A stretch of DNA of 43,881 bases, taken from Lachnospiraceae bacterium. GTDB lineage: Bacteria; Bacillota; Clostridia; Lachnospirales; Lachnospiraceae. Of the stretch, positions 8,483-30,515 are shown piece after piece; within the stretch, counting starts at the first letter, position 1; every line of letters starts with the position of its first letter. The translations under genes and the position numbers were made by a program. The stretch is from NCBI GenBank assembly GCA_016286555.1, contig JAEETA010000020.1, positions 1 to 43,881 of the forward strand. Direction: 5' to 3'. The notes below the pieces were generated by a model. It made no database searches. It saw only the letters and a list, made by a program, of their open reading frames with translations, and was not told the DNA's origin.

Positions 8483-8515
8483 TGTCTTCGCTTCCTTTAA
8501 CTATTCCTTAGTACT

Positions 8516-11500
8516 TTATTTGTCAGCCTTTACGGGCTGCAGGGTTCTCCGATCTCTCTTCAGGAAGAGGACCAGACTGATGGCAAAGAGGCCGATACTG
8601 AAGAACCACTTGGGATGGATACCATCCGCCGTTTTCGGGGAGGTATCGATATCGCCGCCGGCCACAATGCTGTTGGTGTTCACATAGATCACATAAGGCG
8701 AGAAATGGGTCGCCGTAAAGGTCATGCAGGCCACACCGTTAATGGTGGTAAACTTCGGTGCCAAAACGCTCAGCTGGTTGTCGATGATGCAGGCGATCTT
8801 GTTGTTACCTGCATACTGGATCATGGAATCAGGAATGGGCAGGGTAATGGTAATGCTCAGACCCGTGGTATCCGTGATCTTGGTGGTTCCGGCTGCATCG
8901 TACAGGGAGATGTCCATGGGGAAGTACACGATATTGGAAATATCGCCGTACTCTGCCATCAATGCGGTCAGGGCTGCCTGTGCCGCAGAGGAACTCTCCG
9001 TGATCTTGATGGTAAAGTTATCGGAGGAACCGTTCACCGTTGCGGAAACCACACCGGTGTTGCTGAGGCCGTTCTTGTCGATGACTACGGTGGTACCGCC
9101 GCGGGTGTTGGTGCCGGAGTTGCCTCCGTTATTACCACCGTTGCCGCCGCCACCGCCGCCGTTACCGGAGTTGCTTCCGCCACCGCCGCCTCCGTTACCG
9201 CCGTTGCTTCCGTTCTTGAAGGATGCGGTTACGGTACAGTTCTCACCGGGCATGGTGATCACGGTTGCGGACAGTACCTTGGATGCGATCTTGGTTGCTT
9301 CGGGCGCTACGGACCAGGAATCAAATACCTTGCCGCTGGCGGGATCGTCGGCCACAATGATGACCTGTGCTCCCTCCACGTAGCTTCCGGAGCCGCTGCC
9401 GTTGATAACGGTCAGGGTGTAGTACTTTTTCTTGGTGTCGCCGTCTCCGCCGTCATCGTCGCCGCCGCCACCGTCTCCGCCGCCACCCTTGGTGTAAACG
9501 GCTCTGGTGTCAAAGCTTGCGGTGACATTGGTCAGCGGTCTGTCCCAACCGGTGAAGGTATAACCTTCTCTGGCAGGTCCCTGAATGAAGGGCGCGTCCT
9601 CTCCTGCTCCCACGGTTGCGGAGTAGTAGAGGCTCAGACCGTCGTAGGTATAGTAATTGACGGTGAAGTCACCGTTGTAATCGGTGTTGGATACGTACTG
9701 TGCCACAGTATCCATGTCGTTCTTAATGTTGGTGAGAGGTCTGTCCCAACCGGTGAAGGTGTAGCCTTCCCGCTCGGGTCCCTGGATATCGGGAGCGTTC
9801 TCACCATCGATGACCTTGATGGTGTAGTACAGGGTCGCGCCGTCAAAGGTGTAGTAGTTCACGGTGTGGGTCACCACATCCTCTTCCACATACTGAGCGT
9901 AGGTGTCGATGTCCTGGGTGACATTGGTCAGGATCTGGTCCCATCCGGTGAAGACGTAGCCCTTCCGCTCGGGTCCCATGATGTAAGGCGCATCTCCGCC
10001 GTACTCCACCTCGTAGGTCTTGAAGACATAGAGCCCATCGTAGGTATAGTAGGTAACGGTGCAGATGGCGTTGCCTTCCTTGTACAGAGCGATGGTGGAA
10101 ATATCGGACTGGACATTGGTCAGGTCCTGATCCCATCCGGTGAAGGTGTAGCCGTCTCTTGCGGGGCCGTTGATGTTGGGTGCGTCCTTACCCTTCTCAA
10201 CAATGGCGGTGTAGTACAGAGAACTGCCGTCGAAGTTGTAGTAGCTGACGGTATAGGTCACAATACCGATCTCGGAATAGGTAGCATAAGTATCCAGGTC
10301 GGTAGCCACCGCATTGATGGGGCGATCCCATCCGGTAAAGGTATAGCCCTCTCTCTCGGGAGGTTCGGGTGCCAGTTTGGTCAGGTCGCTGCCTCTTGCC
10401 ACGGTCTCGGTGGAAAGCAAGGTTCCGTCGTAGTTATAGAAATTAACAGTAACAGTATCCTCGGAGTACTGTGCAAAGAGATTCAGGTCGCTGTGGACGT
10501 TTTCATAGCCCATGTTACGCTGGCTATCCCACCACTGAATGAAGAAGTAGCCGCTTCTTCCATGTACTGTAGGAGGAACCGCATCTCTTCCCTCGATGAC
10601 AGTCTGGGAATCTACCATGACCATATTGTCGGGAGATGCATCGGTGTAATCCCAGAAGACTACGGTAAAGGTTGCAGGCAGCTGGGATACGGTATAGCCG
10701 TTGGCATCTGCGTATGCATAGGTCTGGGAATCCTTGGGCGCATACACCTCAACCACGGAGTTGCGGGTATGGTCGGACTGCTCGGTGGTGCCGTCAAATC
10801 CGGTGGACTCCATATGATCCAGCGCATGGGTGGAGAAAATGGTATTACCGTTGTAAATCTCCAAGTCTACCAGCTTCTTGGTTCCGTCGAAGGCATAATC
10901 CTTGATGGAATTGTTGGAAGCGGGCAGGATCACGCTGGAAAGGTCTACTGCATCCTTGAAGCAGAATTCCGGTACGGAAGCGATGCTGCTTCCGCTCAGG
11001 TCAACATTGGTCAGTGGCGTGTTGCCGAAGGCCTCTCTGCTGAGCGCCGTTACGCCGGTGACATCGGTGGAACGGATATTTCTGGAGGCTCTTCCTGCCA
11101 GCACCTCAATGATGGTAGCCTTATTATTCCCGTAGATGATGGAATTCTCGCAGGTAAAGTTCGTATTGGCTCCGAAGTCAACATGCGCCAGATTGCTGCA
11201 GCCCCAGAAAGGTGCAACAGACATTTCGGAGACGGAGGATGAGAAGGTTGCGCTATTAAGAGCCGCATCATTCTCAAAAGCATGATATCCCAGCTGAGAA
11301 GCATTCTGCAATGATACGGTAGCCAGAGAAGTACAGTTACCGAATGCTCTGTCACCCATGGAACCAATTGCACCGGTGCCGGATACATCCGTCAGATCCG
11401 TACAGCCGAAGAACGCACCTGCATCCAGGTCCACGGTCTCCGTTCCACGGAAGGTGACTGTCTTCAGATAAGAGCATCCCGCAAAATCGCTGGTATCAGG

Positions 11501-14137: not shown

Positions 14138-14142
14138 GATTC

Positions 14143-15348
14143 TCAGTTCTCCCTTTTTTTGGCTACAACCACAAAACGACCGTTGGCCTCCTCATAATCG
14201 CAGGTGGACAACGTGATCAGGTGGTCTCCGTACTCAGCGGTGACACCTGTGTCGTAAAGCGACATGGCAGCCATCTCATCCATGTAGGAATCGAACTCAA
14301 CTGCGCTGTAAGCCTCATAAAACTGATAATATTTGAAAGCGATGGAGTCCTCCGTGTCCAGATGGGTCCGGAAGACGTACATCACATCATAGGTCCCGTG
14401 TTCATAGATGGAATCAAAGCTGATGGTCTTGTGTTTCTCGTAGAAAGCCTCGTCCTCATACTTGTCCAGCTTGCCGAACATGGCGCCGCTCTTCATATGA
14501 TGACCGTAAATGATCAGGTTTGTGGAAGGTTTTGCAACATCACAGCCGCTGTCTATGAACAGGGTCCCGTTCCGGTTCTCTTTCCCATCAAAGCTGTGAT
14601 TCAGATACCAGGAATTGGCATTCGGGTTATCCGCAGGCAGCTGCATGACAGGAAGACCCTCGTCAGAGAGTATATCGGCTATTTTGATCCATCCGATTAG
14701 GTTTATATTCTTTTTTAATAAATCTTCGAATTCGGGAAGGACATCAGGAAGGGAGGTGTCCACCTCATCCAGTGTGAAGGTTGCAGTCTTCTCTTCCTCT
14801 TCCTTGTTGGGCTTTACCGGCTTTCCGCTGAGCTCCGCATCCGCATTTTCCTTCAGGGTGCTGAGCACGGAAAAAGTCTGGGAATTCTTGTAATCCAGGT
14901 AGTAATAGAACCCGATGTAACCGATGCAGATCACGGCCACAACGGCACTTAAGGCTACGATGAGACGGCGCCTCTTCTCCTGCTTTTGCAGAATGGCGCG
15001 GGCTCCGGCTTCCACCTCGGCAGAGACGGGCTTTTTTGCGCCGCTCTCCTCTTTTCCGCCTTTGGATGCGCTTTTTCCGGAGAGGCCCTTCTTTCCGGCG
15101 GCTCCCGGATTTGCCTTTTCCTTCCGGATCATGTCATCCAGCTCTTCGAGAAAATCGTCCCCGAGGATGGTATGGAATTTGATCTTTTTATTTGCAATAT
15201 CACTCCGAAGGGCGGTGAGCTGCTGCAGGTTCATGGCTTTCGCTTTCTCCCGCAGCAGATCGATGGCAGCCTTATCGGTTTCCGCAAGCTTCGCATCCGC
15301 TGCGGTCCGGAACTGTCTGCCCTCCACAATGTAAACTTTTGGTGCCAT
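14143..15348 (-). CDS. srtB: Class B sortase with a long cytoplasmic N-terminal extension
   Basis: 401 aa. The catalytic domain is at about 200-401. It has YGHHMKSG (catalytic His at 283 or 284), TLSTCDYE (nucleophile Cys383) and NGRFVVVAK (Arg391), the class B triad. A single membrane helix lies at 129-151. In front is an unusual region of about 128 residues: a folded-looking part at 4-78 beginning VYIVEGRQFRTAADAK, and a Lys/Gly/Ser linker. The basic residues just before the helix place this part in the cytoplasm. The enzyme would cleave the SPKTAD signal of the next gene's product and attach it to the peptidoglycan precursor. It starts 12 bp after the leuS stop and ends 5 bp before its probable substrate gene. 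What the N-terminal domain does is unknown; I do not recognise its family. Confidence 0.93.
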   Translation of the reverse strand: MAPKVYIVEGRQFRTAADAKLAETDKAAIDLLREKAKAMNLQQLTALRSDIANKKIKFHTILGDDFLEELDDMIRKEKANPGAAGKKGLSGKSASKGGKEESGAKKPVSAEVEAGARAILQKQEKRRRLIVALSAVVAVICIGYIGFYYYLDYKNSQTFSVLSTLKENADAELSGKPVKPNKEEEEKTATFTLDEVDTSLPDVLPEFEDLLKKNINLIGWIKIADILSDEGLPVMQLPADNPNANSWYLNHSFDGKENRNGTLFIDSGCDVAKPSTNLIIYGHHMKSGAMFGKLDKYEDEAFYEKHKTISFDSIYEHGTYDVMYVFRTHLDTEDSIAFKYYQFYEAYSAVEFDSYMDEMAAMSLYDTGVTAEYGDHLITLSTCDYEEANGRFVVVAKKREN

Positions 15349-17808: not shown

Positions 17809-17830
17809 CAAATTTCATTCAAATTTCATT
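17809..17830. repeat. Tandem 11-bp direct repeat at the leuS transcription start
   Basis: CAAATTTCATT occurs at 17809-17819 and again directly at 17820-17830. The pair touches the -10 box and covers the expected start of transcription, where a repressor could bind. It may also be chance in AT-rich DNA. Confidence 0.6.
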
Positions 17831-17856
17831 ATAGAAAAATCCGAACCTGTTTTCAA
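17828..17856 (-). promoter_or_regulatory. Promoter of leuS and the surface-protein run
   Basis: TTGAAA (17856-17851) and a consensus TATAAT (17833-17828) are spaced 17 bp on the minus strand. The -35 box overlaps the last codons of the DUF4832 gene. It gives a leader of about 50 nt to leuS. Confidence 0.85.
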
Positions 17857-19322
17857 TCCTTATCTTCTATGGTATAGAGTTCGTTGCGACCTTCGGATAT
17901 CTCCGTATCCAGGTCCAGGAGGAGAAATCCGCCGCCTGCAGCAGCGCTCTCTCCGGTCTGCCCGGCAGCCTCTTCGGACTCGATCCCGATGGCGATCTTA
18001 TACCCGGTCATCTCCTCCGGCTTCTCCACGGGGATCCGGAAAAGTGCGTGTAAGGAGGCTTCCGCCCCCTCGTAGAGCGCTCGCAGATCGATGTCCAGCT
18101 CCGCACGTTCAAGCACCTCTCCCTCCGGACTCAGCAGATACAGACACACCGGCAGATCCCGGTACATAGGAGCGACACCGATGTTTTTCAGGGTCACCTC
18201 TGAGGTGATGGTACGCTTTACATCATTCCGCGTGAAGGTTCCTTCAGTCACGGTGTAGCGGTAGCCTACCCTGCGCAGGATCTGCGGGATCGCCTCCTCC
18301 GTCACTTCCTTCAGGCGCTTTGACACATCTCTCTCCACCCCATCATCGTGAGGGATCTTCGGTCCGATGAAGCTCATATGGGACGCCTCCAGAAGCTCCA
18401 GAGTCCGCTTTAAGTGCCGTCCCAGCATCTCCTCCATGGAGAGTGAGCTCGTAAATTCCCCGCCAATGGCCGCCCGCCTCCAGATCTCGGGCGCTGCAGG
18501 CAACGCAAAAGGCTCCTCGGCATGGGGGTAGGTGCCACCCTCGGAGATCCATTCCAGCCATTCTTCGGTATCCTCCGGCTCCCCGGTCATATCATTATAG
18601 GTCCCGAAGCCATCCTCCGAAACCGGCGGAAAAGTCCGCCGCATCAGGAGCTGCGTATCCGGAAAGGCAGCTTTGTAGGCGTCCACGTATTTTTGGCATA
18701 CCTCCCAGTTCGGGAAGGTATCGTGCGTATCCTCTCCCTTACCCAGCAGGATATGCCACTCGCCCCAGTGCCCGAGGCTCCCCAGCTCCACATAAGTAAG
18801 AAAGCCGTTTCCTGCGTACGCATCCGCCAGCGCCTGCAGCGCCTCCCCATGGAGTGCGATCAGGGTCTCATTTTCGTAGTTCGGACAGTACCCGGCGCCA
18901 TATTCGTGATCGTAGTATGTTCCGTCCCCGGTGAGATCATAGAGCCACTGCGGAATGTCCAGGTGCTTCTCATCGTCCGGATAATCCATCAGAAAGCGCA
19001 GCACCAGGTGCTTACCTTCCGCTTTCCACCGCTCCAGATGATAGGCTTCCTCTATCCCCGCAAAATCATACACGCCCCGCTCCGGCTCCAGCTCCGCCCA
19101 GGTGATCCCGACGTAAACCAGCTCATATTTTTCGGCCAGCTCCTCATTGTCCGCATTCGGCGCAAATCCGATGTAGGGATTCGCCAGGATCGTATCCGCC
19201 GGAAGGGGATCATAGGTCACGGCAAACGACGACTGTCTGCTTTTGACCCATAGGAAAAGCCCTGCCGCCGAAAGCAGCAGGGTCATAAGAATTATCAGGA
19301 TTACGAAAAGCTTTTTTTTCAT
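17853..19322 (-). CDS. DUF4832-type secreted TIM-barrel-like protein, candidate glycan hydrolase of the Pel-like operon
   Basis: 489 aa with an N-terminal membrane anchor or uncleaved signal (KKKLFVILIILMTLLLSAAGLFLW). The middle resembles DUF4874/DUF4832 proteins. It has ANPYIGF near the start, a clan-A-like GITWAELEPERGVYDF strand-turn, LRFLMD, and VELGSLGHWGEWH with Glu179 and Glu188, which could serve as acid/base and substrate contacts. The C-terminal part looks like a beta-sandwich. A glycoside hydrolase role is inference from these features; the family has no characterised reaction that I can name. The ATG at 19322 overlaps the DUF4956 stop by one base (TGATG), and the in-frame TTG just before is less likely. 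As last gene of the operon it could supply the hydrolase activity that PelA has in Gram-negatives. Confidence 0.75.
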   Translation of the reverse strand: MKKKLFVILIILMTLLLSAAGLFLWVKSRQSSFAVTYDPLPADTILANPYIGFAPNADNEELAEKYELVYVGITWAELEPERGVYDFAGIEEAYHLERWKAEGKHLVLRFLMDYPDDEKHLDIPQWLYDLTGDGTYYDHEYGAGYCPNYENETLIALHGEALQALADAYAGNGFLTYVELGSLGHWGEWHILLGKGEDTHDTFPNWEVCQKYVDAYKAAFPDTQLLMRRTFPPVSEDGFGTYNDMTGEPEDTEEWLEWISEGGTYPHAEEPFALPAAPEIWRRAAIGGEFTSSLSMEEMLGRHLKRTLELLEASHMSFIGPKIPHDDGVERDVSKRLKEVTEEAIPQILRRVGYRYTVTEGTFTRNDVKRTITSEVTLKNIGVAPMYRDLPVCLYLLSPEGEVLERAELDIDLRALYEGAEASLHALFRIPVEKPEEMTGYKIAIGIESEEAAGQTGESAAAGGGFLLLDLDTEISEGRNELYTIEDKD

Positions 19323-20005
19323 CAACTGTGATATTCTCCGTCAAAAAGAAGAAGGGTACAGTCGCTCACATTCTCCAGATCACGGATCTTCTCCGCAAAG
19401 GACAGATTTTTATTCTTCGCCCGAAGCTGAACCGTCATCTCGGTCTCGTCGCCGCGCATCACCTTGGAACGGACCGTGTGGCTGATATGGGACAGATTCC
19501 GCTCCACCGCGTCACCGGCCTCGTCTCCCTGATAGTGTACCACCATGATATAGGCACTGCCAACAGAGGGGTTGCTGCTGAAGCTTATCACCACCAGAAC
19601 CATGATCAGGAATGACAGTCCAACAAGAATATACATGCTCGCGCCCATGGCGATCCCGGTACCGATGGCCCAGAAGAGATACATGAGGTCCAGGGGTTCC
19701 TTGATGGCGGTACGATAACGCACGATGGACAACGCACCGACCATACCGAGGGAGATGACGACATTGGTACTGATGGCCAGCGTCACCATGCAGGTCAGCA
19801 CGCACATGCCCACCAGGCTCATCCCGAAGTTCTTGCTGAAGACCACTCCGTGGTAGTATCTGCGATAGACCGCATAGATCAGCAGTCCCACCAGAAATGC
19901 CAGCAGCAGATCCACAACAAAGGTAAAGATCGTGGATCCGGTGATCGCCTGATTATAGGCTGCCGATTCCAGCACCGATTTCTTGATTACATCCTTAACG
20001 CTCAT
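19322..20005 (-). CDS. DUF4956 membrane protein
   Basis: 227 aa with about four transmembrane helices in the first 140 residues (FVVDLLLAFLVGLLIYAVY; MCVLTCMVTLAIST; then LFWAIGTGIAMGASMYILVG), followed by a cytoplasmic alpha/beta domain. GMVGALSIVRYRTAIKEP matches the conserved centre of DUF4956. The start at 20005 has AAAGGAT about 8 bp upstream and begins 14 bp after the VTC gene; a longer in-frame start at 20059 would overlap that gene. DUF4956 genes are often found beside VTC-domain and CotH genes, and that is the arrangement here, so the protein probably forms a complex with the VTC protein at the membrane. Its activity is unknown. Confidence 0.88.
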   Translation of the reverse strand: MSVKDVIKKSVLESAAYNQAITGSTIFTFVVDLLLAFLVGLLIYAVYRRYYHGVVFSKNFGMSLVGMCVLTCMVTLAISTNVVISLGMVGALSIVRYRTAIKEPLDLMYLFWAIGTGIAMGASMYILVGLSFLIMVLVVISFSSNPSVGSAYIMVVHYQGDEAGDAVERNLSHISHTVRSKVMRGDETEMTVQLRAKNKNLSFAEKIRDLENVSDCTLLLFDGEYHS

Positions 20006-20019
20006 TCGATCATCCTTTC

Positions 20020-20727
20020 TTACTGCAATACCTGCAGTTCTTTCTTTTTTTCCAGACACAGGACATATTTGGAAGCAGCGACATACTCGCTGTCATCTAC
20101 CCTGAGCAGATCCCGTACCACATCCGGCAGATACTCGGTAAACTTGACCTCCAGGATCAGCTGCCCCGGGGGAAGCACTTCAAAAACCGGACTCCGCAGA
20201 TCGAAGATATCCCGCTCAAATACACCGGCCCGCACATGCTGATCCAGCGTGATCCGCACCTCCCCATAGGGATAGACATACGGAATCCGATCATAGTCCA
20301 CCAGGATTGCGGGATGCATGGCACGCATGCTGTGGTCGAGGTAGAACTGCCTGCACACCGGCTCCCTGCGGTCTCTTAAGAAGTCATACCGGCCGTTCTC
20401 CATCCATTCCAGCTCCTGCACCGACAGCGAGGCCGAAATCTTCTGAATGAACTGTCCTTCCTTTCGCTTGCACTCGAGGCGGATCACATCCTGCTGTCCG
20501 TTGTAGATCCGGATACGGTATTTCTTGCGGGAGTCCGAGCCTGCGGTTTTCTCCGTATACGCCGTCTCCCACATGTCGTCAAAGTACAGACTCCGGATGA
20601 AATATCCGTCCGCCCCCGCATTGGGATCGAGCTGCAGGATCACACCGAGCCTGCTTTTCAAGACCTCCGCTTCCGCATATGTAATTGCGTATTTGAGTTC
20701 ATGCCGAAACGGCTTACTGCTGTTCAT
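20020..20727 (-). CDS. VTC-domain protein (polyphosphate polymerase-like)
   Basis: 235 aa, essentially a single VTC domain. The tunnel residues of the yeast Vtc4 polyphosphate polymerase fold are recognisable: HELKYAI near the N-terminus, SLYFDD, KYRIRIYNG, and LECKRKEGQ, which supply the basic residues and acidic metal ligands. In yeast this fold makes polyphosphate from ATP; whether bacterial single-domain members do the same is not settled. AGGAG lies about 7 bp before the ATG at 20727, while the GTG at 20733 is too close to that site. The gene begins 2 bp after the cotH stop. Sitting between CotH and DUF4956, it could handle a phosphate-rich ligand for surface-polymer modification (inference). 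Confidence 0.9.
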   Translation of the reverse strand: MNSSKPFRHELKYAITYAEAEVLKSRLGVILQLDPNAGADGYFIRSLYFDDMWETAYTEKTAGSDSRKKYRIRIYNGQQDVIRLECKRKEGQFIQKISASLSVQELEWMENGRYDFLRDRREPVCRQFYLDHSMRAMHPAILVDYDRIPYVYPYGEVRITLDQHVRAGVFERDIFDLRSPVFEVLPPGQLILEVKFTEYLPDVVRDLLRVDDSEYVAASKYVLCLEKKKELQVLQ

Positions 20728-20729
20728 GC

Positions 20730-22538
20730 TCACTCTCCTGCGCGATAGATGCTGCCGTCCGGCATCACATAGAAACGGATCATACCGAAGAATTTCACGC
20801 CGTCCTTATCCAGATAGTCAAAGGCATACTGCTCGTAACCCTTATCATCCACAGCCTTCACGCGATAATAGTAAGACCCCGGAGCCAGTTTTTCGCCCAG
20901 CTCATATTCCGGCCGAAACGTTTCTGCCGTTACCAGAACATCCGTAAATTCCTTGTCCAGGGAAAGCTCAAACCGATAAGTAACCAGATCCGCATCCAGA
21001 TCATAGGACGCATCCCAGTCAAAATATGTGGTGCCCTCCCTCGGTTCCGGTGTATCCAGATAAAAGGGCATAGGTCTTAACAGGGACTCCAGGTACATAG
21101 CATAATTGTCCGCGATGGAAGGAATGATCTGACTGACAACATGATCGTACTCATCCGGCAGCAAAGGAGCATGGGTCGCGTCTCGATCTTTATAGACATA
21201 GGACTTCACCACCGGCGTATATTGCTCGACCAGATTGCGGATCCGTTCCTCTGACAGATACTCCTCCATCAGGATATGGATCTTATCATCCACTAACTCA
21301 CGATACCCGGCATCCTGAAGGAACCGGCGATACAAAACGTTTCCCCAGTAATTGCTGATACCGTTATCCCATGATATCGACCTGGGCTGCGCATTTCTGA
21401 CGATCTCATTCTCGGCATCACGGAAGGCTGTATCACAGTCCCAGTTGAACACATACCAGGTATTCTCATTCTTTGCGCTGTAGAGCAGCGTATTTCTGGA
21501 CTGGGTATCCACATTTCCGGTCAGAATGTTAAAGGCCAGGAACATCGCAAGATTATCGGCATCGAACCATTTATCGATGATCGTGTGGATCGGAATGGTT
21601 TCATCATTCAGCTCCTGAAGCATCGTGATGAGTTTTTGGTGATCATCATCCCCCTGAATAGCCAGATGATACTCAAATGCATCCAGATCATAATCGGCAT
21701 CACTCTTCAGTTTGATGGCATCCTCATAGGGGAAAAACTCAAAGAGCTCATTCAGCTTATACAGCTGGCCGTTTTCATCCAGCCCGTGATGTCTCAGATA
21801 GGAGTCATTGGGCTGCTCCACCTGTGTATAGAGTCCGTAATCCGCAAAGCCCTCGTCGGTTCCGTCTGTGAGGTCGTTTACGTATAAATGCACAAACTGT
21901 GTCCGAAAGGACATCAGATCCGGCACTCCGACCAGAAGATCATACATCAGTTTGTTACGAAAACGGAGTCCGTCCGTCATGTGCTTATTCAGGTTAATGA
22001 CTCTCTGATCTTCATATTTCGGAGAGCCTTTATCGATACGGATCTTATAGTTTTTCTGTGCCAGTTCCGTGGAGGTCTGACCGCGGATCGAAACCGTACA
22101 GTTGGGGGTGAACAGTCCGTAACCGTATGCGCCCTCTGCCGGCCCGGTCTCATCTCCTACCTGGAGCAGCCCTTCCACTCTGTACCTATCGATTCCTCTG
22201 ACCTCATAATATTCATTGCTATAGGTATTCACTTCCTCCCAGGTGTGGTTCGTTCCCTCGGAGGCGTTTCCGGAAGTGACGGTCAGATACATGGTCTTAA
22301 CAGCGGCCACATCCCGGCCCTCATACAGCGACAGGTTATCCTGAAGACCCGCTTTTTCTTCCTCCGCAAAGGTTACCTCCATATGTGCGGGGGCGTCTGC
22401 GGAGGCAGCGTCTGCCTGTACTTCGGATTGCGTGGAAGATTCCTGCGATGCATCCGTTTCCGATACGCTGCCACATCCGGTAAGGGCTGCCAGACTTAAG
22501 GCACATACACAACTGATCAGTACGATTCTTCGATTCAT
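20730..22538 (-). CDS. CotH-family lipoprotein, atypical extracellular kinase-like
   Basis: 602 aa. A lipobox LTGC puts the lipidated Cys at 22, so the protein is predicted on the outer face of the membrane, followed by a Ser/Glu/Ala-rich linker. The CotH kinase core is present: RGQTSTELAQKNYKIRI (glycine-loop and lysine region), NVDTQSRN (Asp344, Asn349) and NWDCDTAF (Asp367, Asp369), equivalent to the catalytic and metal-binding residues of spore-coat CotH. A fibronectin-like beta domain (FDWDASYDLDADLVTYRFELS) makes up the C-terminus. CotH kinases phosphorylate secreted proteins such as CotB and CotG in Bacillus. The ATG overlaps the pelG stop (ATGA), giving a direct translational link to exopolysaccharide export. 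Its substrate here is unknown; a surface protein or the polymer itself are both possible. Confidence 0.9.
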   Translation of the reverse strand: MNRRIVLISCVCALSLAALTGCGSVSETDASQESSTQSEVQADAASADAPAHMEVTFAEEEKAGLQDNLSLYEGRDVAAVKTMYLTVTSGNASEGTNHTWEEVNTYSNEYYEVRGIDRYRVEGLLQVGDETGPAEGAYGYGLFTPNCTVSIRGQTSTELAQKNYKIRIDKGSPKYEDQRVINLNKHMTDGLRFRNKLMYDLLVGVPDLMSFRTQFVHLYVNDLTDGTDEGFADYGLYTQVEQPNDSYLRHHGLDENGQLYKLNELFEFFPYEDAIKLKSDADYDLDAFEYHLAIQGDDDHQKLITMLQELNDETIPIHTIIDKWFDADNLAMFLAFNILTGNVDTQSRNTLLYSAKNENTWYVFNWDCDTAFRDAENEIVRNAQPRSISWDNGISNYWGNVLYRRFLQDAGYRELVDDKIHILMEEYLSEERIRNLVEQYTPVVKSYVYKDRDATHAPLLPDEYDHVVSQIIPSIADNYAMYLESLLRPMPFYLDTPEPREGTTYFDWDASYDLDADLVTYRFELSLDKEFTDVLVTAETFRPEYELGEKLAPGSYYYRVKAVDDKGYEQYAFDYLDKDGVKFFGMIRFYVMPDGSIYRAGE

Positions 22539-24034
22539 TCTGCTTCACCAACCTCTTCGGAGACCACATATTCTTCCGGATGCGTCTCCCGATACTTCGC
22601 TTCAAACGAGTCAGACAGCTTTGTAAACAGCCCTTTACGTTCCACCTGCAGGATCGGCTGACTGCAAAGCGTATTGCGCATCATCTTGCGCATAAAGCGA
22701 TACAGAAGCGCCAGCGACACAAAGGTAAAGGCTACACCTCCTGCGAGGAAGCCCACCCCGTAATACTTCACGTCCATCAGGGACGTAATATACGTACCCA
22801 CATTGGCTACCATGGCAAAGCAGGCACCGCTGTAGAGTGCCCCTTTGTTGTCCGCAAAATACAGCTGAATCAGCATGACGCAATTGCCCGCCGCATAGAA
22901 GGCATAGCCCACGCACATGATGCGGTAGATGCCCAGCATATCCTCCGTCATACCCAGGGGCAGCGCCGGTAGCAGAAGCGTTCCTCCGACGATAAAGATG
23001 ACCGTGGTAAAGAACTGTTTGGTAAAGGTGTAGGTCAGCTCCTGCACCAGCGTCTCCCGCATCTCCCGTTCCGCCTGTTCGATGTCGCGAAGGGAACCCT
23101 CGTGATTGTACAGAGCAAAATAGTTCTTGTACTTCGGGTAGAAATTCACCTCCACCGAGGTCACAAAGCTGATGGTGGTGATCAAAATGGAGAAAAATGC
23201 CAGTAATGCGGAGATGTCATAGATCGGTGCCTCACGCAGGACGCCGGAGATCTGATGTCCCACCGGGGAATACCACATGATCAGGATATGTCCGAACAGT
23301 CCCAGCGCCATGGTAAGGCCCAGGGCCATCAGCTCTTTGTACTGATCCAGTGCCCGCAGGAAATAGAGTGCGCTTCCTTTCCCGAGAGGGAAAAATCTGG
23401 TCAGTGTCCGGTTATACCAGACCGCCATAATCCCGTATGCGGCCGCCACCGTCGTCAGCATGCAGTGGATCACATGAAGCTTTAAAACCACCAGACCGAT
23501 GTGGCATCCGCCCAGTGCGATCACCACAGCGAAAAAGAAAGCCAGCAGGATCCCGCGGTAATCCTTCACGGCAGTCAGGAAATTGATCTGGTTCCAGACC
23601 AGTACCAGCTCTCCATAGAGGATGACGCAGATGATGATCCCGTAGAGATCCTCCCCCGTAAAGCAGAGGAAAATGCCGTATATCACAGCGCCGATCGCGA
23701 TCAGCAGGCTGCTTCCGCCATAGAAGGAAGGCATCACCCGCTTCAAGCGGTTCTCATAGATCCGGTCCGCAGTGAACCTGGTCAGGGGCATGGACAGCAG
23801 ATCCGTGATCAGGAGAGAAAATAGCAGTGTCACGGTGATCAGTCCGTTGACCACGCGCATATCCTCATCGGGCGCCTGAATGATCCCGCCCAGGATGCGG
23901 ATCCCCAAAAGCAGTCCGATCCCCAGCAGCATCGGGCCCGTCGTGACGATACCTGCGTATCCGTAGGCTTTCACCATCGAAAACAGACCCTTTTTTTCGA
24001 ACATCTTCTTTAATTCAAATCCGATTCCGGCCAT
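22535..24034 (-). CDS. pelG: PelG-like exopolysaccharide transporter
   Basis: 499 aa beginning MAGIGFELKKMF, the typical start of PelG, with about 12 transmembrane helices throughout and a cytoplasmic C-terminal tail. PelG belongs to the MOP flippase superfamily and, with PelD, PelE and PelF, forms the synthase-export complex of Pel, a GalNAc/galactosamine-type polymer. YGYAGIVTTGPMLLGIG and the later DNKGALYSG region fit the family. The gene begins 3 bp after pelF and overlaps cotH by 4 bp. Assignment to the family is firm; the exact sugar composition of the polymer in this organism is not shown by the sequence. Confidence 0.95.
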   Translation of the reverse strand: MAGIGFELKKMFEKKGLFSMVKAYGYAGIVTTGPMLLGIGLLLGIRILGGIIQAPDEDMRVVNGLITVTLLFSLLITDLLSMPLTRFTADRIYENRLKRVMPSFYGGSSLLIAIGAVIYGIFLCFTGEDLYGIIICVILYGELVLVWNQINFLTAVKDYRGILLAFFFAVVIALGGCHIGLVVLKLHVIHCMLTTVAAAYGIMAVWYNRTLTRFFPLGKGSALYFLRALDQYKELMALGLTMALGLFGHILIMWYSPVGHQISGVLREAPIYDISALLAFFSILITTISFVTSVEVNFYPKYKNYFALYNHEGSLRDIEQAEREMRETLVQELTYTFTKQFFTTVIFIVGGTLLLPALPLGMTEDMLGIYRIMCVGYAFYAAGNCVMLIQLYFADNKGALYSGACFAMVANVGTYITSLMDVKYYGVGFLAGGVAFTFVSLALLYRFMRKMMRNTLCSQPILQVERKGLFTKLSDSFEAKYRETHPEEYVVSEEVGEAE

Positions 24035-24037
24035 TTT

Positions 24038-25459
24038 CTAATCCTCTTTTTTCCCGTTGGGAAGAAGTCTCTCGTACAGATCCAGATACATCTTCATGCT
24101 GCGCTCATGGGTATAATATGCTTTTGCCCGCGCTCTTCCGCTCTCAGCCATCTCACGGCAAAGCTCCTTCTGCCCACAGAGCATGCGCATCGCACCTGCC
24201 AGTAGGTCCTTATTCATGGGCGGAACGATAATGCCGGCGGGTCCGAACTCATCCGTCCCCTCCACCAGCTCTCTGCAGCATCCCACATCGGTCGCCACCA
24301 CAGGACGCCCTGCGGCAAAGGACTCGAGAACCGACAGCGGCTGACCCTCGGAGATACTGGTCAGGATGGTAAAGTCGATCTTCTTCAGGTATTCCATGAC
24401 ATTGACGATACCGGTAAAGAGGATGTCCTTCACGCCCAACTGTTCGATCAGCTGATGGCATTCCGCATCGTATTCCCGGTCATCCACATCGCCCATGATG
24501 TGCAGTCTCGCATTCGGAACCGAGGACTTGAGCTCGGAGAAGGCATAGATCATGGTCTTGATATCCTTGATCCTGGCGATACGGACCACCGCGCCGATAT
24601 CGACGAATCCGTCCGGCTTTTTGGGCTCGATCTTGCAGAAATTCTCATAATGGATTCCGTTGGGGATCACGCAGAGCTTCTCAGGATCGGCGCCCAGCTC
24701 CGCCTGGATGGTGTTTGCTCGCTGAAACAGTGCGGTAACCACATCCGCATGATGGTACGCACAGCGGGAAAAGATATAGAACAGATCAATCCATTGCTGG
24801 CGGAAGACGGGAAGCACCCACTCCGCACGAAGGAGCTCTTCCTCCCGCTCACGGGTATAGATACCATGCTCTGTCACGACATAAGGATTCCCGGTCTTCC
24901 ATTTTGCAAGGCTTCCAAGGAGTCCGCTGTATCCGGTAGCCGTCGCATGATACAAATCCGCATAGGGCACCTCCTGCGACAGAAGGTGCATCTCCGGAAG
25001 CATCATGGAGCGAACGCTGTAGAAATAATCCGAGAAAGAGATGTAGGGATATTTCGTCCGGCAGTTCTCGATGATCATATTCAGAAAGCTCTCGCTCATC
25101 AAAAGTCCTACCGGATCTACTTTCCGGTTCTGGAAGAGATCAAAAAGGATATCCCAGTCCAGATCCTCGGAACGGAACAGCTTTGTAAGAGCCTCCTCCT
25201 GCTGCGGATCCAGACGGACCTTCTTCTTTCTGCGGCTGGGAAGCGGCTCCTTCAGGGCACTGTCCAGAAAGACTTCATGTACTTCCTTCACATTCTCCGG
25301 AAGCTCGTATTTGAACTTTCCCTTGTCCTCCTCTTTCGCACCGATACACCAGAGCACAAATTCCGTATCCGGCATGCCTTTGATATAATTGTGGGTCCAG
25401 CTGGAAACTCCACCGTGTACGTAGGGGTAGCTCCCCTCAAGGATCATACAGATTCTCAC
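24038..25459 (-). CDS. pelF: PelF-like glycosyltransferase (GT4)
   Basis: 473 aa, soluble, with the two-Rossmann GT-B layout. The N-terminus MRICMILEGSYPYVHGGVSSW is the PelF type of GT4 opening. The retaining-transferase E-x7-E motif lies in SEGQPLSVLE (Glu371 and Glu379), and DVGCCRELVEG follows in the nucleotide-sugar site. PelF from Pseudomonas uses UDP-linked sugars and builds the Pel chain in the cytoplasm for export through PelG. The gene lies 58 bp after the DUF2194 gene and 3 bp before pelG. Confidence 0.95.
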   Translation of the reverse strand: MRICMILEGSYPYVHGGVSSWTHNYIKGMPDTEFVLWCIGAKEEDKGKFKYELPENVKEVHEVFLDSALKEPLPSRRKKKVRLDPQQEEALTKLFRSEDLDWDILFDLFQNRKVDPVGLLMSESFLNMIIENCRTKYPYISFSDYFYSVRSMMLPEMHLLSQEVPYADLYHATATGYSGLLGSLAKWKTGNPYVVTEHGIYTREREEELLRAEWVLPVFRQQWIDLFYIFSRCAYHHADVVTALFQRANTIQAELGADPEKLCVIPNGIHYENFCKIEPKKPDGFVDIGAVVRIARIKDIKTMIYAFSELKSSVPNARLHIMGDVDDREYDAECHQLIEQLGVKDILFTGIVNVMEYLKKIDFTILTSISEGQPLSVLESFAAGRPVVATDVGCCRELVEGTDEFGPAGIIVPPMNKDLLAGAMRMLCGQKELCREMAESGRARAKAYYTHERSMKMYLDLYERLLPNGKKED

Positions 25460-25517
25460 GATCTTACTCTCCTGTCATCGTTCTTCCTGAAAGGACGTTA
25501 AGCAAAGCCTGAAAGCT

Positions 25518-27413
25518 TTACCGGTATCTGATCTCGATGTGCTCCTGCGTGGCGCATACCAGATACAGGCCGTTTGCCACCTGTTCCAGGGAGCAACCGA
25601 CCGTCTCTCCGGGTTCCCTGTCTCTCATGCGCAGCAGGAACCACGCTTCGCCTGTAAAGCCCCCCAGATCCGCGCTGACGGACGATTCATCCGATGACCT
25701 TTTCAGGGAAATGTGATCATAGATCTGAACCGCATTGGCCATCTCACTGGCCGTCTGCTCCCGGATGGCAGCAGCATCGGTGGTGATCCAGTCCAGATAC
25801 GATTCAAACCACTCTGACATTTTTGCCCATCCCTGATCTGCATACCGATCTACATCCAGCGTATCGTCCGGATGAAAGAAATGGGACTGCACGAAATGAA
25901 AATTCAGTTCCGACATGGCCATCAGACTGTCATATTCATTGATGTAGGTACCGTAGACGATCCTGGGCATCTCGATGATCCCGTCTTCTGCCACGCCGAA
26001 TTCCTGCTCATACTCTGTTGCCTGACCGTGCGCGTTCGCATGCGTCACATAGAAGCTGGCGATGGCACGTATCTCCGGAACTGCCTCCTTTAGGGCTTCC
26101 CGCCCGGTTTCGGAAAAAATATTGGAGGGCGGAACATAAACCGCAAATTCCGTATTCGGGAAAACCGTATGAGAGAATCTGGACAGTTCCTTCAGGCTGC
26201 TTTCCATCTCTTCCACGGAAGGCCACATGACGTAGGATCCGATCCGCTTTTCGTCATCCTTTCCCTGCAGGATCAGAGGCATATGATTATAGCCGTGGTA
26301 CCCGAGCTCTCCGCGGTTGTTCAGAAGCATGTTCCCAAAGGCCTTAAACTGCGAAGTGGATTCGTTTTTCGGGAAGGGCCCGTTCACCAGGTCGTTGTAG
26401 TCCTCGATGATCACACCGGTATGACGGATGCCGTACTTTTCTTCCCAGTTCAGGATGGTTGCCCACCATACGTTGGAATAAAAGCTGGCGATATCGATCC
26501 CGTAATCTCTACGGATAAATTCTCCATCCCCTTCCGGAACGGGAGACGGAAAGTCATCGAGATAATACACGGAGGAATTGATCACCGGGTAAAGGGTGGC
26601 TTCTTCCATGAGGCTGTATGCCAGGGACAGGAAGCCCCGCATATACTTGTCCCCCATTGCCATGTTCGTTACGACAATATGTCCCTCTCCGTAAGGAACA
26701 TGCCATAATAACGGAACCGCTCCGTCCTCGGAAGACAGATATACCTCGCAGGCTTCGCTGATCTGTGCCTTGAGGGAAATATCCATTTTTTCGGCAGGGT
26801 CCGCAATCAATTCGTACAGCGGTTTTGAGGTACTGCCGACCATCCTATGATCCAGGACACGGACGCCGGAGATTCCCGCAAATTCATTGAATCCGCCCTC
26901 CACGCCCAGCTGCTGACTGATCATGTGAAGCGTCGGCCCGGGTTCCGGCGTGATGGTATTCATCAGGCTTCCGCCGTCTCTGACCCAGTAGATGATATCA
27001 CGAACGGAATCTCCCAGGACTTCCCAATCCGGGAAGCTGATGATCAGGTGATCATAGGAATCCAGCTGCTGCGCAAAGGAAAACTCTCCGGCTTCAAATA
27101 CGTCGTAGTTCACCTTCATGGACTGCAGAACATTGGTCATCTGCTCCGTGATCACTTTCCCGGCGCTCTGGGCATGATCCACCAGAAGCAGGCAGCGGAT
27201 GTCGTCTTCCACCGGCTCAGTGTAGGTGTAATCCTGCACCACGCCCGGTGTAAAGCCTTCCAGCTGGATCCCGTTTCGTTCCAGCATGACCACGATACCG
27301 ATCAGGACCAGGGCGATCAGCGGCAGCAGAATACGGAACACCATTCGATTCTTTTTATTTGGACGATATCTATCCTCGATTCCAGAATTCAAACCATTGC
27401 CTTTCTTCCGCAT
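25518..27413 (-). CDS. DUF2194 membrane-anchored protein, probable PelA-type polysaccharide deacetylase
   Basis: 631 aa. A basic cytoplasmic start and one helix (MVFRILLPLIALVLIGIVVM) anchor it outside the cell. Residues about 65-270 look like a flavodoxin/glutamine-amidotransferase-like domain (LLLVDHAQSAG; LIISFPDWEVL). The rest is a NodB-like deacetylase region: YYLDDFPSP with Asp286-Asp287 and GYHGYNH with His373 and His377, which match the metal-binding Asp and HxxxH of carbohydrate esterase 4. No PelA-type hydrolase barrel is present, so only the deacetylase half of PelA is represented. In Pel systems partial deacetylation makes the polymer cationic. The start at 27413 overlaps the previous gene by 44 bp; a start at 27344 lacks a visible ribosome site and would lose the basic tail. 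Confidence 0.85.
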   Translation of the reverse strand: MRKKGNGLNSGIEDRYRPNKKNRMVFRILLPLIALVLIGIVVMLERNGIQLEGFTPGVVQDYTYTEPVEDDIRCLLLVDHAQSAGKVITEQMTNVLQSMKVNYDVFEAGEFSFAQQLDSYDHLIISFPDWEVLGDSVRDIIYWVRDGGSLMNTITPEPGPTLHMISQQLGVEGGFNEFAGISGVRVLDHRMVGSTSKPLYELIADPAEKMDISLKAQISEACEVYLSSEDGAVPLLWHVPYGEGHIVVTNMAMGDKYMRGFLSLAYSLMEEATLYPVINSSVYYLDDFPSPVPEGDGEFIRRDYGIDIASFYSNVWWATILNWEEKYGIRHTGVIIEDYNDLVNGPFPKNESTSQFKAFGNMLLNNRGELGYHGYNHMPLILQGKDDEKRIGSYVMWPSVEEMESSLKELSRFSHTVFPNTEFAVYVPPSNIFSETGREALKEAVPEIRAIASFYVTHANAHGQATEYEQEFGVAEDGIIEMPRIVYGTYINEYDSLMAMSELNFHFVQSHFFHPDDTLDVDRYADQGWAKMSEWFESYLDWITTDAAAIREQTASEMANAVQIYDHISLKRSSDESSVSADLGGFTGEAWFLLRMRDREPGETVGCSLEQVANGLYLVCATQEHIEIRYR

Positions 27414-28251
27414 GCAGATAGATCCCGCTCTCCTTCAGGCGCTTCAGGACCCCGGGGATACGCTCTCCCTGCAAAGTGACCTGCAGATAGTCCACATAGA
27501 TCCGGTACAGCCCAAACTCTTCCGGCCAGCGCTGCATGGCAGATTCGATCTCCTTCTCCAGTCCGTCCGTCTCCTTCAGGGCGATCCTGCACTCCAGGTA
27601 TTCCAGAACGTACGCCTTGTAATCGGGATAGAGTTCCATCAGTTCCGTCAGTACGGTCTTCAGCTTCTGCCGGTAAATGTTCAGAACATTGCCGGTGATC
27701 AGTGTCGAGTCAATGTACTGTTTCAGGGCACGGCGGTAACCGCGCTTGGCCGAAGTGCTCTCCGGGAGCATCCGGTACGCTTCCTCCGCTTCACTGATCT
27801 GCTTCTCGTATCTGCCCTGGATGGACATCATGCTGGTGGTCGCGTAATGGCTGACCTCGGTGTCATCCGTGGCACTGGCACTCTTCAGCAGGCCGATATT
27901 TTCCTCCGGATTCTTCTGCAGGATATCGATCATCAGCTTCCGCCTTGTCTGCGCATCGTTGACAACGAGCGCCTCCTCCAGCGGAACCGTGATGTCCTGA
28001 TCTCTGGAATCGTTGTGATCGATGCGCTTATAGCGGATCTCATCGATGGTCATCTTCTCCAGACCGATCTCTTTGGTTGCGGATTTCTGCTTCTTCTCGA
28101 CATAGATCTGATCGACCAGGATCAGGATCCCCACGATCGGAAGAAACAGGACAAGCGTATAAAGTCTCGCATGCACCTGGATCCGTTTCGTCGCCATCAA
28201 GATACCGGTGACGATACAGATCAGGGCATGTATCAGTAAAAAGATCATCAT
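27370..28251 (-). CDS. pelE: PelE-like membrane protein with helical repeats
   Basis: 293 aa. Two closely spaced N-terminal helices (MIFLLIHALICIVTGIL and LYTLVLFLPIVGILILV) are followed by a mostly helical cytoplasmic domain of about 240 residues that looks like TPR-type repeats. That is the plan of PelE, which docks on PelD at the membrane in Gram-negative Pel systems. Sequence signatures are weak, so the name rests mainly on layout, size and its place between pelD (5 bp before) and the deacetylase-like gene. Two adjacent ATG codons (28251 and 28248) are possible starts, with a GGAG-containing stretch about 10 bp upstream. Confidence 0.75.
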   Translation of the reverse strand: MMIFLLIHALICIVTGILMATKRIQVHARLYTLVLFLPIVGILILVDQIYVEKKQKSATKEIGLEKMTIDEIRYKRIDHNDSRDQDITVPLEEALVVNDAQTRRKLMIDILQKNPEENIGLLKSASATDDTEVSHYATTSMMSIQGRYEKQISEAEEAYRMLPESTSAKRGYRRALKQYIDSTLITGNVLNIYRQKLKTVLTELMELYPDYKAYVLEYLECRIALKETDGLEKEIESAMQRWPEEFGLYRIYVDYLQVTLQGERIPGVLKRLKESGIYLHAEERQWFEFWNRG

Positions 28252-28256
28252 GTTTT

Positions 28257-30344
28257 TTACTCCGTTACCTTCTCATAGCTGACGCCGGACTTCGACAAAC
28301 GCTCGGATACTTTTCCGAATGCCGCTTCATCGAGTTGGCTCAGAAGCAGATACACCTCTCCGTCCCTGCCGCGTCCCAGGATATCATTGCTGCGGACACA
28401 GCTGGAAACCGCGTTGGAAAGCTCGGTCAGAGACTTCTTATCCTGCACGATCCTGAGCAGTACAAAATCAAGCAGATTTTTGTTTCTCATCTCCCGGCGG
28501 GTCTCCAGGATCGGCGCAAAATACTCCTCCTTCAGCACCAGCGTATCTCCTTCGGTCTCATCGTTGCGCTCCTGTGCTTCCGTTGCGCGCACGAAGGAAT
28601 CGGAGATCAGGTTGGATATGATATTCAGTTTGTTCAGGAACTCCATATTCTGCTGCTTTAACGTTGCTTCCTCGATCATGATGATACCGAGGAGCTCGTT
28701 GTTTCTGTGGATCGGCGCCGCATAGGAAGGATATCCTTCCTTTACCTCCCGGTTGACAAAGGTCTGATTGTCGCGCAGAGCCTTATGCATCTCGGGATAT
28801 TTATCGAGATCCAGCGACTTGGTCAGATGCTCCGAGATGGCGTTGGAGGCTACCATCAGGCGGGCGAAGGGTCTGCCGCCCTGCACGGTGTAGACAGCCA
28901 CCGTATTGTTCTCCAGGATCTCCTCCAGCACGTTGATGGATTCATAGAATACCTTGTCCGGAAGCACGGAATCCAGCCTGGTCACAACCGAATAGATCTT
29001 GCCGAAGCTGTCGCGGTATCCGATGATCTGGCTGTTAAATTCCTCCTTGCCGGAGAGGACTTCATCATAGAGACCTGTGAGGAAGGTGTATTTTTCCTCC
29101 AGGATGTCATGCTCCTCCTTCACATAGATGACATCATCGTCATGCTTGTCCTTCGTATATCCGGTGATGGTACCGAGGATGAAGAAGGTGGCGAAGGGGA
29201 TCCAGTTCTGGATGTTGAAAAAGAGGATCTGCCATTGGGTGATAACCGCATTTTCCACGAGGAATCCGATACAAGCCAGGATTGCGGTAACGACGCCGGG
29301 GACCAGGCCGTTGATCGTACCCATGAGAAGGATCGCGATCAACCGGAAATCAAAGAAATCCAGGAAAATATTATTGGCGGTCAGCCGGTTACAGAATTCC
29401 GCAAGCAGGCATACGATGATCACCTCCAGCACCACGCGGATCCGCTCCCGCAGCTGCCTGCGGTTCTTACGTCTCGTATAGGAGCGGCCCTTACGCAGGC
29501 TTTCCTGCGCCGCAGCATCGAGCATGGCCGGCAGATCCTTCACGAGCTGATGCGTCGGGAACCATCCGTATTCCTTGCGGGCAGTCTCATCTCCGTTTGC
29601 CACGGGGATGGCCGTCACGCTGTCATGGAACCGGACCTTATTGTCCTTACCGCGGACCAGAAGCTCGAATACTTCCTTGAAGGCATGATGATTCTGCCCA
29701 TCCAGATGCATCTCGCTGAAGAGATCCTCCATGGGATCGTCCAGGATCCGGCTCAGAAGCTCTGCCAGGTCCTCATCGTTCAGATAATCGGTCACATCCT
29801 CCGCCGCTCCGCGGAAGGAGAGACTCTCTCCGGAGACCGCCTTGTCGATCAGGTACCAGACTCTGCAGCCGGAGCGCTCGGTTCCGTAGATAAAAGGAAC
29901 ATGCAGGATCGTGATCCGCATCTCGTATTTTTCCGTGAAGGTTTTGCACAGCTCCTCGCAGGCCTTCAACAGTACCTGACGGCTGGGCGTGCCATCCATG
30001 ACGGAAACGTCATAGTACTCGTAGTCATTGGTCGCAACATAGATGAAATGCTTCACACTGCTGCGGCGGGCCTGATACAGGTTGCTTTCCAGGTCTTCCA
30101 GCTCATCGAAGACCTTCACCGCACCATCCAGCGCATGAGAGAAAAAGACGACCGCCTCCGGCCGGAAGGCTGCGTATACCGCGACCTCTTCCTCTTCTCC
30201 TCCCGCCGGGTAGGTGGAAATATTTTTTCCGCCGATGCCGGGAGCCATATGCTCCTTCGACAGGATGCATTTGTAATCCTGGGACAGCCGTTCGGTGAAT
30301 TTTCTGGACAACAGATCCGTGTTACCGGTCAAAAGTACATTCAT
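28257..30344 (-). CDS. pelD: PelD-like c-di-GMP receptor fused to a degenerate SDR/epimerase domain
   Basis: 695 aa. Residues 1-300 resemble an NAD-dependent epimerase (MNVLLTG start, HVPFIYG). However, the Rossmann glycines are largely lost (TGNTDLLS) and the catalytic Tyr of YxxxK is Gln123 before Lys127, so it is probably inactive. Four membrane helices follow at about 318-430, then a GAF-like domain and a C-terminal GGDEF-like domain. In that domain the active-site motif has become RDGEV (660-664), but the inhibitory site RSND (651-654, RxxD) is kept at the usual distance. This is the PelD pattern: it binds c-di-GMP without making it and turns on the PelF-PelG complex. The start at 30344 has AGGAGG 4 bp upstream; an earlier in-frame ATG (30398) would lie very close to the transcription start. 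It is the first gene of the operon. Confidence 0.92.
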   Translation of the reverse strand: MNVLLTGNTDLLSRKFTERLSQDYKCILSKEHMAPGIGGKNISTYPAGGEEEEVAVYAAFRPEAVVFFSHALDGAVKVFDELEDLESNLYQARRSSVKHFIYVATNDYEYYDVSVMDGTPSRQVLLKACEELCKTFTEKYEMRITILHVPFIYGTERSGCRVWYLIDKAVSGESLSFRGAAEDVTDYLNDEDLAELLSRILDDPMEDLFSEMHLDGQNHHAFKEVFELLVRGKDNKVRFHDSVTAIPVANGDETARKEYGWFPTHQLVKDLPAMLDAAAQESLRKGRSYTRRKNRRQLRERIRVVLEVIIVCLLAEFCNRLTANNIFLDFFDFRLIAILLMGTINGLVPGVVTAILACIGFLVENAVITQWQILFFNIQNWIPFATFFILGTITGYTKDKHDDDVIYVKEEHDILEEKYTFLTGLYDEVLSGKEEFNSQIIGYRDSFGKIYSVVTRLDSVLPDKVFYESINVLEEILENNTVAVYTVQGGRPFARLMVASNAISEHLTKSLDLDKYPEMHKALRDNQTFVNREVKEGYPSYAAPIHRNNELLGIIMIEEATLKQQNMEFLNKLNIISNLISDSFVRATEAQERNDETEGDTLVLKEEYFAPILETRREMRNKNLLDFVLLRIVQDKKSLTELSNAVSSCVRSNDILGRGRDGEVYLLLSQLDEAAFGKVSERLSKSGVSYEKVTE

Positions 30345-30408: not shown

Positions 30409-30417
30409 ATTATAGCA
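30409..30417 (-). promoter_or_regulatory. Extended -10 promoter of the Pel-like operon
   Basis: On the minus strand TGC precedes a perfect TATAAT (30414-30409). No good -35 box lies at 16-18 bp (TAACCA at 17), which fits an extended -10 type and possible activation. The leader to pelD is about 58 nt. Confidence 0.7.
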
Positions 30418-30480: not shown

Positions 30481-30515
30481 AAAACAAAGGCACACCCGCG
30501 AAGAGTGTGCCTTTG
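30481..30515 (-). terminator. Rho-independent terminator after the EF-G-like gene
   Basis: An 11-bp perfect stem, CAAAGGCACAC (30485-30495) with GTGTGCCTTTG (30505-30515), is followed on the minus strand by TTTTTGTGTG. It separates the EF-G-like gene from the Pel-like operon promoter. Confidence 0.88.

Follow-up and report, generated by a model that had tools for sequence, protein, structure and literature searches.

The window analysed here, positions 1 to 43,881 of contig JAEETA010000020.1 of a Lachnospiraceae bacterium (assembly GCA_016286555.1), carries on its minus strand nine genes (30344-17853) which, on sequence grounds, very probably form a Gram-positive Pel exopolysaccharide operon controlled by cyclic di-GMP (c-di-GMP) and belonging to a subclass known from published work on streptococci and clostridia. 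The operon extends that subclass to another organism. Three of its genes, cotH, VTC and DUF4956 (the trio), followed pelG in most near relatives, but across the phylum they behaved as a portable unit accompanying several kinds of polysaccharide system. Where a pattern is said not to have been found reported, the searches covered the open-licence PubMed Central (PMC) literature. The genes of the operon are:

28257..30344, minus strand: pelD, with a degenerate SDR domain, membrane helices, a GAF domain and a degenerate GGDEF domain with the I-site R651xxD654 and R682
27370..28251, minus strand: pelE-like gene, with a hydrophobic N-terminus and a TPR-like region (TPR_14, 0.026)
25518..27413, minus strand: DUF2194, polysaccharide de-N-acetylase of the PelA(DA) type (Pfam, 3.8e-158); translation may instead start later, at 27344
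24038..25459, minus strand: pelF, GT4 glycosyltransferase (NF038011, 9.6e-106)
22535..24034, minus strand: pelG, exopolysaccharide exporter (PF16933, 9.6e-120)
20730..22538, minus strand: cotH (Pfam, 1e-64), with a lipoprotein-type signal (ALTGC), a CotH kinase domain and a C-terminal FN3-like region
20020..20733, minus strand: VTC, polyphosphate-polymerase-type domain (Pfam, 8.2e-29; yeast Vtc4 3g3q by profile, 2e-9)
19322..20059, minus strand: DUF4956 (Pfam, 4.1e-10), with membrane helices and a cytosolic ferredoxin/ACT-like domain; the gene probably starts at 20005
17853..19325, minus strand: DUF4832 (Pfam, 5.3e-19), with an N-terminal membrane segment; homologue of the Streptococcus intermedius SIR_1591 glycoside hydrolase

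The Pel operon and its predicted control by c-di-GMP

All nine genes were found at the place, on the strand and in the order given by the initial annotation, and Pfam or NCBIfam families were matched over their cut-offs by the products of all but pelD and the pelE-like gene. Adjacent pelF and pelG genes, here 3 bp apart, mark a Gram-positive Pel cluster, and two further traits place the operon in the streptococcal and clostridial subclass: cotH, VTC, DUF4956 and DUF4832 lie contiguously downstream of pelG, and PelD bears an epimerase-like SDR domain at its N-terminus. The published clusters of streptococci and clostridia (pelDEADAFG, then cotH, PPP, DUF4956 and DUF4832, with an SDR domain on PelD; Whitfield 2020, PMC7112168) agree with the window in all nine genes and in their order, with the accessory genes directly downstream, and the same complement appears in PMC12345266. 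The operon is therefore an addition to a known Pel subclass, and the earlier suggestion of a possible distinct variant was rejected.

The SDR domain of PelD matched the UDP-glucose 4-epimerase 4zrm by alignment profile (9.6e-35) and Pfam Epimerase only weakly, below the family cut-off (7.7e-4); its glycine motif is lost in the window (TGNTDLLS). The AlphaFold2 model of PelD (mean pLDDT 85.8, pTM 0.48) had 4zrn as top Foldseek match (4.7e-15), in agreement with the profile. The degenerate GGDEF domain matched 6khu by alignment profile (2.1e-4). Within it, R651 and D654 were present in all 40 homologues and R682 in 39, and by motif and spacing these residues correspond to R363, D366 and R395 of Bacillus cereus PelD, which are required for c-di-GMP binding and biofilm (PMC7112168, PMC13254593). 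Since the I-site residues are kept and the genome contains 44 GGDEF matches, control of the operon by c-di-GMP is a well-supported prediction, in line with the c-di-GMP link proposed in the initial annotation. Weighing against the assignment, the PelD of Pseudomonas aeruginosa was not among the PDB matches to the profile of the window PelD up to E 0.1. Alignments were used for the PDB comparisons of PelD and VTC, since single-sequence searches with either protein returned nothing useful.

The DUF2194 protein matched the structure of B. cereus PelADA (9zau, 1.9e-57) and keeps the motifs YLDDFP (Asp-Asp), HGYNH (HxxxH) and SHFFHPDD (HPDD). The pelE-like gene matched no curated family over the cut-off, although in relatives the same position is held by members of a common profile family. 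For DUF4832, a PDB search gave no match, and the protein at the same place in the S. intermedius operon (locus L163) matched the family at 7.7e-20. Compared with the window, the B. cereus pelDEADAFG operon shares the PelD I-site, the PelADA deacetylase, PelF and PelG but has a PelD without SDR domain and lacks cotH-VTC-DUF4956 in the published descriptions (PMC7112168, PMC13254593). Conversely, the S. intermedius operon has the same accessory genes as the window in streptococci that, according to PMC12345266, do not use c-di-GMP; the published streptococcal PelD has no GGDEF domain (PMC7112168), whereas that of the window has both GGDEF and I-site.

Judged from its family, PelF would polymerise a chain of the N-acetylgalactosamine (GalNAc) type, which PelG, with PelD and PelE, would carry out of the cell. 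Binding of c-di-GMP at the I-site of PelD would turn synthesis on, as suggested by residue conservation and by what is known from B. cereus. Outside the membrane the DUF2194 enzyme would deacetylate the chain, which the DUF4832 enzyme could cut. In S. intermedius the polymer is GalNAc-rich, glycoside hydrolase activity has been shown for the DUF4832 protein and the core pel genes are essential (PMC12345266).

The operon is bounded upstream by a terminator and downstream by leuS, and three signals lie at its ends:

30485..30515, minus strand: intrinsic terminator belonging to the EF-G-like gene upstream, a 13-pair stem followed by a T-rich tail, just before the operon
30409..30417, minus strand: candidate extended -10 promoter TGCTATAAT, read by eye from the sequence
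17828..17856, minus strand: promoter-like site of leuS, TTGAAA-17-TATAAT, with 11/12 matches

The terminator had the most stem pairs among the 20 terminator-like sites listed for the region; in number, these 20 sites exceed what shuffled sequence gave (mean 13.2, sd 3.6). The candidate promoter was absent from the promoter scan list, that scan requiring a -35 element; a Shine-Dalgarno sequence, also read by eye, precedes the ATG of pelD at 30344. From 3' to 5' the gene junctions measured -4, -40, -4, -4, +3, +58, -44 and +5 bp; at seven of the eight the genes thus overlap or lie no more than 5 bp apart, the exception being the 58 bp between pelF and DUF2194. If DUF4956 started at Met 20005, where the alignment consensus begins, the -40 junction would become a 14-bp gap. 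A single transcript for the nine genes is plausible from this layout. The promoter-like site of leuS overlaps the end of the DUF4832 gene, and because leuS has this site of its own it need not belong to the operon and was rejected as a necessary member. All nine genes are under purifying selection relative to a same-genus relative (locus L244, genome G407), with omega values of 0.05-0.23, that of DUF4832 being calculated on 339 codons only, as the L244 copy is cut by a contig end.

Linkage of the trio to pelG

Near relatives were represented by the best 80 of 561 confirmed named PelG loci, a sample biased to close relatives, mostly Lachnospiraceae or other Bacillota metagenome-assembled genomes (MAGs). 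The genes cotH, VTC and DUF4956 followed pelG in 61 of these 80 loci and in 55 of the 63 with at least 6 kb of downstream sequence, DUF4832 also following in 26 of the 63. The accessory genes follow pelG far above chance in near relatives; we did not find the count of 55/63 reported elsewhere. Departures from this arrangement included a VTC-DUF4956 pair without cotH (L113), a trio upstream of pelD (L151) and DUF4832 directly after pelG on short contigs (L115, L119, L122).

The picture was different in a sample of 398 genomes drawn evenly from the phylum, in which p-values are only a guide because the genomes are related. PelG was over the cut-off in 13 genomes, and the trio lay beside it in three. 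VTC, taken anywhere in the genome, was not significantly enriched with PelG (4/13 PelG genomes vs. 60/385 others, p = 0.14). Among loci with a full PelD, window included, the trio was present in 3/7 with a long PelD vs. 0/3 with a short one. Taken together, these counts place the trio with one PelG lineage rather than with Pel generally. Within the genus of the window, PelG was found in 11 of the 31 genomes searched. Eight of these (L236-L243) had a Pel operon of another type, whose PelG is 23-25 percent identical to that of the window and is followed by an additional PelF-like glycosyltransferase of about 410 aa, and a DUF4832 gene; cotH-VTC-DUF4956 was not seen in the stretch fetched for them. 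The window-type operon was complete except for the cut last gene in G407 and continued up to the contig end in G416.

PelG and CotH formed a single open reading frame (ORF), with a lipobox-like stretch between them, in nine of the 80 near loci, which came from Paenibacillus (six), Brevibacillus (one) and Lachnospiraceae MAGs (two). We did not find this arrangement described. Such fusion would locate the kinase at the exporter. The distances of the trio genes correlated with PelG distances to a similar extent as those of core genes (r 0.78-0.88 vs. 0.77-0.93; 31 loci plus the window), a correlation that includes shared species history.

Some variations on the locus were also observed. Two cotH genes stood in tandem after pelG in L054, L136, L140, L146, L147, L153, L161, L164, L165, L176, L178 and L181. 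Four long-PelD loci without the trio (L104:7075-9330, L105, L106:5573-9157 and L107) had a protein of 714-1194 aa after pelG instead; the two that were scanned, those of L104 and L106, had no Pfam match over the cut-off. The 939-aa PelD of L139 (3030-5849) carries an additional HD domain at its N-terminus (PF13487, 1.3e-24), as though the c-di-GMP receptor had been joined to a hydrolase of the same messenger, and a GGDEF-EAL protein is encoded directly after DUF4956 in that locus; the likeness seen for the long PelD proteins of L132, L133, L141, L142 and L152 is one of length (923-963 aa).

The trio outside Pel and the secretion of CotH

VTC and DUF4956 were present in the identical 64 of the 398 phylum genomes, a joint occurrence that we did not find reported; CotH occurred in 56, of which 50 have the pair. 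Among 14 control genomes, VTC and DUF4956 again coincided, both occurring in three (Bacteroides ihuae, Corynebacterium glutamicum and Methanosarcina acetivorans), CotH being present in the last two and in Bacillus subtilis. In a set of 78 VTC loci, VTC and DUF4956 shared one directon in 67, together with CotH in 40, with Cthe_2159 in 20 and with Pel in three; these counts are lower bounds, as the greedy ORF caller lost some genes (e.g., in L053). All 40 CotH loci carried the full trio, and 37 of them had no Pel alongside, which we did not find reported either. The trio, a companion of Pel in the near loci, is not Pel-specific. The trio was ordered VTC-DUF4956-CotH in 32 loci, and CotH-VTC-DUF4956 only in the three Pel loci. 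A statement in PMC12345266 that the syntenic arrangement does not occur outside Pel loci is accordingly true for the gene order in this sample but not for the trio.

That so many trio loci lie outside Pel, and so few PelG genomes of the phylum have the trio beside PelG, would be expected if the trio merely adjoined Pel without joint function. We consider this highly improbable, given the single PelG-CotH ORFs, the near-locus counts and the correlated divergence, to which the S. intermedius mutant phenotypes (PMC12345266) add; the explanation was disfavoured on the first three grounds.

Four trio loci lay in GT2 synthase clusters (L032, L075, L085, the latter with PilZ and MBOAT, and L093); GT2 neighbours may be undercounted, since the Pfam scan took in only some of the 129 accessory proteins of over 150 aa in these directons. 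The layout of L032 resembles the NELoc-2 type of Clostridium perfringens, where VTC, a membrane protein annotated as tubulin/FtsZ GTPase and CotH lie beside a polysaccharide synthase, with a GT2 chitin-synthase-like enzyme and a HEAT protein in place of Pel (PMC2879425). In the VTC tree, for which every second eligible named Pel-linked row was taken (31 in all), the VTCs of GT2-cluster loci formed one branch (95/95), whereas Pel-adjacent VTCs fell mainly in two others. A second VTC-DUF4956 pair in the genome of the window, with Cthe_2159 (L070; G000 contig 72), belonged to another branch.

A signal-like N-terminus, as defined by a simple rule of our own, was found in 42/42 CotH ORFs that lie no more than 2 kb from VTC and in 16/29 away from it, with VTC as negative (0/79) and Cthe_2159 as positive control (23/26). 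We did not find this reported. The 13 signal-less CotH ORFs comprised eight of the spore-coat type (364-414 aa), none beside VTC, together with the interrupted L204 (389 aa), L211, one fragment and a pair of some 695 aa to which L202, itself positive, is related. Of the six CotH genomes without VTC-DUF4956, four (G124, G139, G314 and G348) hold only unsecreted CotH of 365-414 aa and one (G176) had a sub-threshold match. Secreted CotH kinases thus accompany VTC and DUF4956, and unsecreted small ones do not, with a true exception that counts against this pattern, a lipoprotein CotH without a VTC match in G072. CotH is also present in a published Zetaproteobacteria stalk study, in which a term search did not find VTC or DUF4956.

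Possible roles of the trio

By alignment profile the window CotH matched 5jd9, a solved CotH structure (1.7e-24), and its more distal part matched titin FN3 domains. D367, D369, N349, K162, K185 and E241 were present in 37/37 homologues and D344 in 36/37, and the NxD and WDxD active-site stretches align with 5jd9 and are conserved. By this alignment the protein keeps the catalytic residues of the kinase fold; we infer the exact equivalence to B. subtilis D228, whose replacement (D228Q) inactivates CotH.

VTC is, by sequence, of the polyphosphate-polymerase type. R10, E12, K14, K62, R69, K71, R73, R75, E87, K89, K98, R149, R160, E195, K197, S221 and K222 were invariant in 36 sequences, and many of the basic and acidic ones, which presumably line the polymerase tunnel, align with yeast Vtc4. 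In contrast to the yeast VTC complex, the VTC domain of the window stands alone and its membrane partner, DUF4956, is of another fold class: the AlphaFold2 model of DUF4956 (mean pLDDT 81.5, pTM 0.67) gave only weak Foldseek matches, including the C-terminal domain of MgtC (2lqj, 1.4e-3).

Our tentative proposal for the trio is that VTC would make polyphosphate from ATP inside the cell, DUF4956 would pass it out or gate it, and extracellular CotH would use it as phosphate donor, because ATP is scarce outside the cell. In our main reading of the operon, CotH is a lipoprotein kinase at the outer surface of the membrane beside PelG, and VTC and DUF4956 are its obligate companions; in the proposed role it would phosphorylate either the polymer itself or surface proteins of the Pel system, tuning Pel retention and amount. 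It is conceivable, though doubtful, that the nascent exopolysaccharide itself is phosphorylated in this polyphosphate-fuelled manner by secreted CotH, sometimes fused to PelG. One and the same unit may then serve Pel and GT2-type synthase systems and elsewhere stand alone. The trio may in this way bring phosphate chemistry to the cell surface, and its distribution offers an explanation, open to testing, of how an extracellular kinase could be supplied with phosphate; for CotH in spores the source of ATP has been called unanswered (PMC7821199).

Several observations weigh against the donor step. CotH phosphorylates with ATP in vitro. The DUF4956 model had zero Foldseek matches under E 0.001 and resembles MgtC/ACT, unlike the channel of yeast VTC. 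In S. intermedius, where the counterparts of the last four genes of the window (SIR_1591-1594) were deleted one by one, a donor role predicts that the VTC mutant should resemble the cotH mutant; it did not, the VTC-gene (SIR_1593) deletion still aggregating, while cotH and DUF4956 deletions aggregated less and altered the amount of Pel in opposite directions (PMC12345266). Beside VTC, moreover, CotH was replaced by Cthe_2159, a carbohydrate-binding protein (PF14262, 6.2e-97), in 20/78 loci and by leucine-rich repeat (LRR) or lamin-tail proteins in others. The silent VTC mutant and the replacement of CotH by non-kinases are the strongest counterpoints.

The opposite effects of the DUF4956 and cotH mutants would fit a regulatory role, in which CotH phosphorylates Pel proteins, as proposed by Whitfield 2020 (PMC7112168), the predicted ACT/ferredoxin-like (MgtC-like) domain of DUF4956 senses metabolites and VTC serves phosphate balance. 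This is possible at best, as CotH is extracellular, where no ATP pool is known, and the pairing of secreted CotH with VTC where Pel is absent is left unexplained. The carbohydrate-binding and LRR/lamin-tail character of the alternative third genes, together with the presence of a Pel-type deacetylase, suggests instead that VTC and DUF4956 put polyphosphate on the surface, where it would bind the cationic, partly deacetylated Pel in the way that extracellular DNA binds it in P. aeruginosa, with CotH, Cthe_2159 or LRR proteins as anchor. We regard this as unlikely: the kinase residues of CotH, needless for an anchor, are nearly always kept, and aggregation persisted in the S. intermedius VTC mutant.

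Apart from the operon, the window contains at 6101-15348 two BspA-like LRR proteins, the larger of which, or at least one of which, has 1873 aa and repeat domains; a sortase gene adjoins them, and the group is likely a surface-protein cluster.

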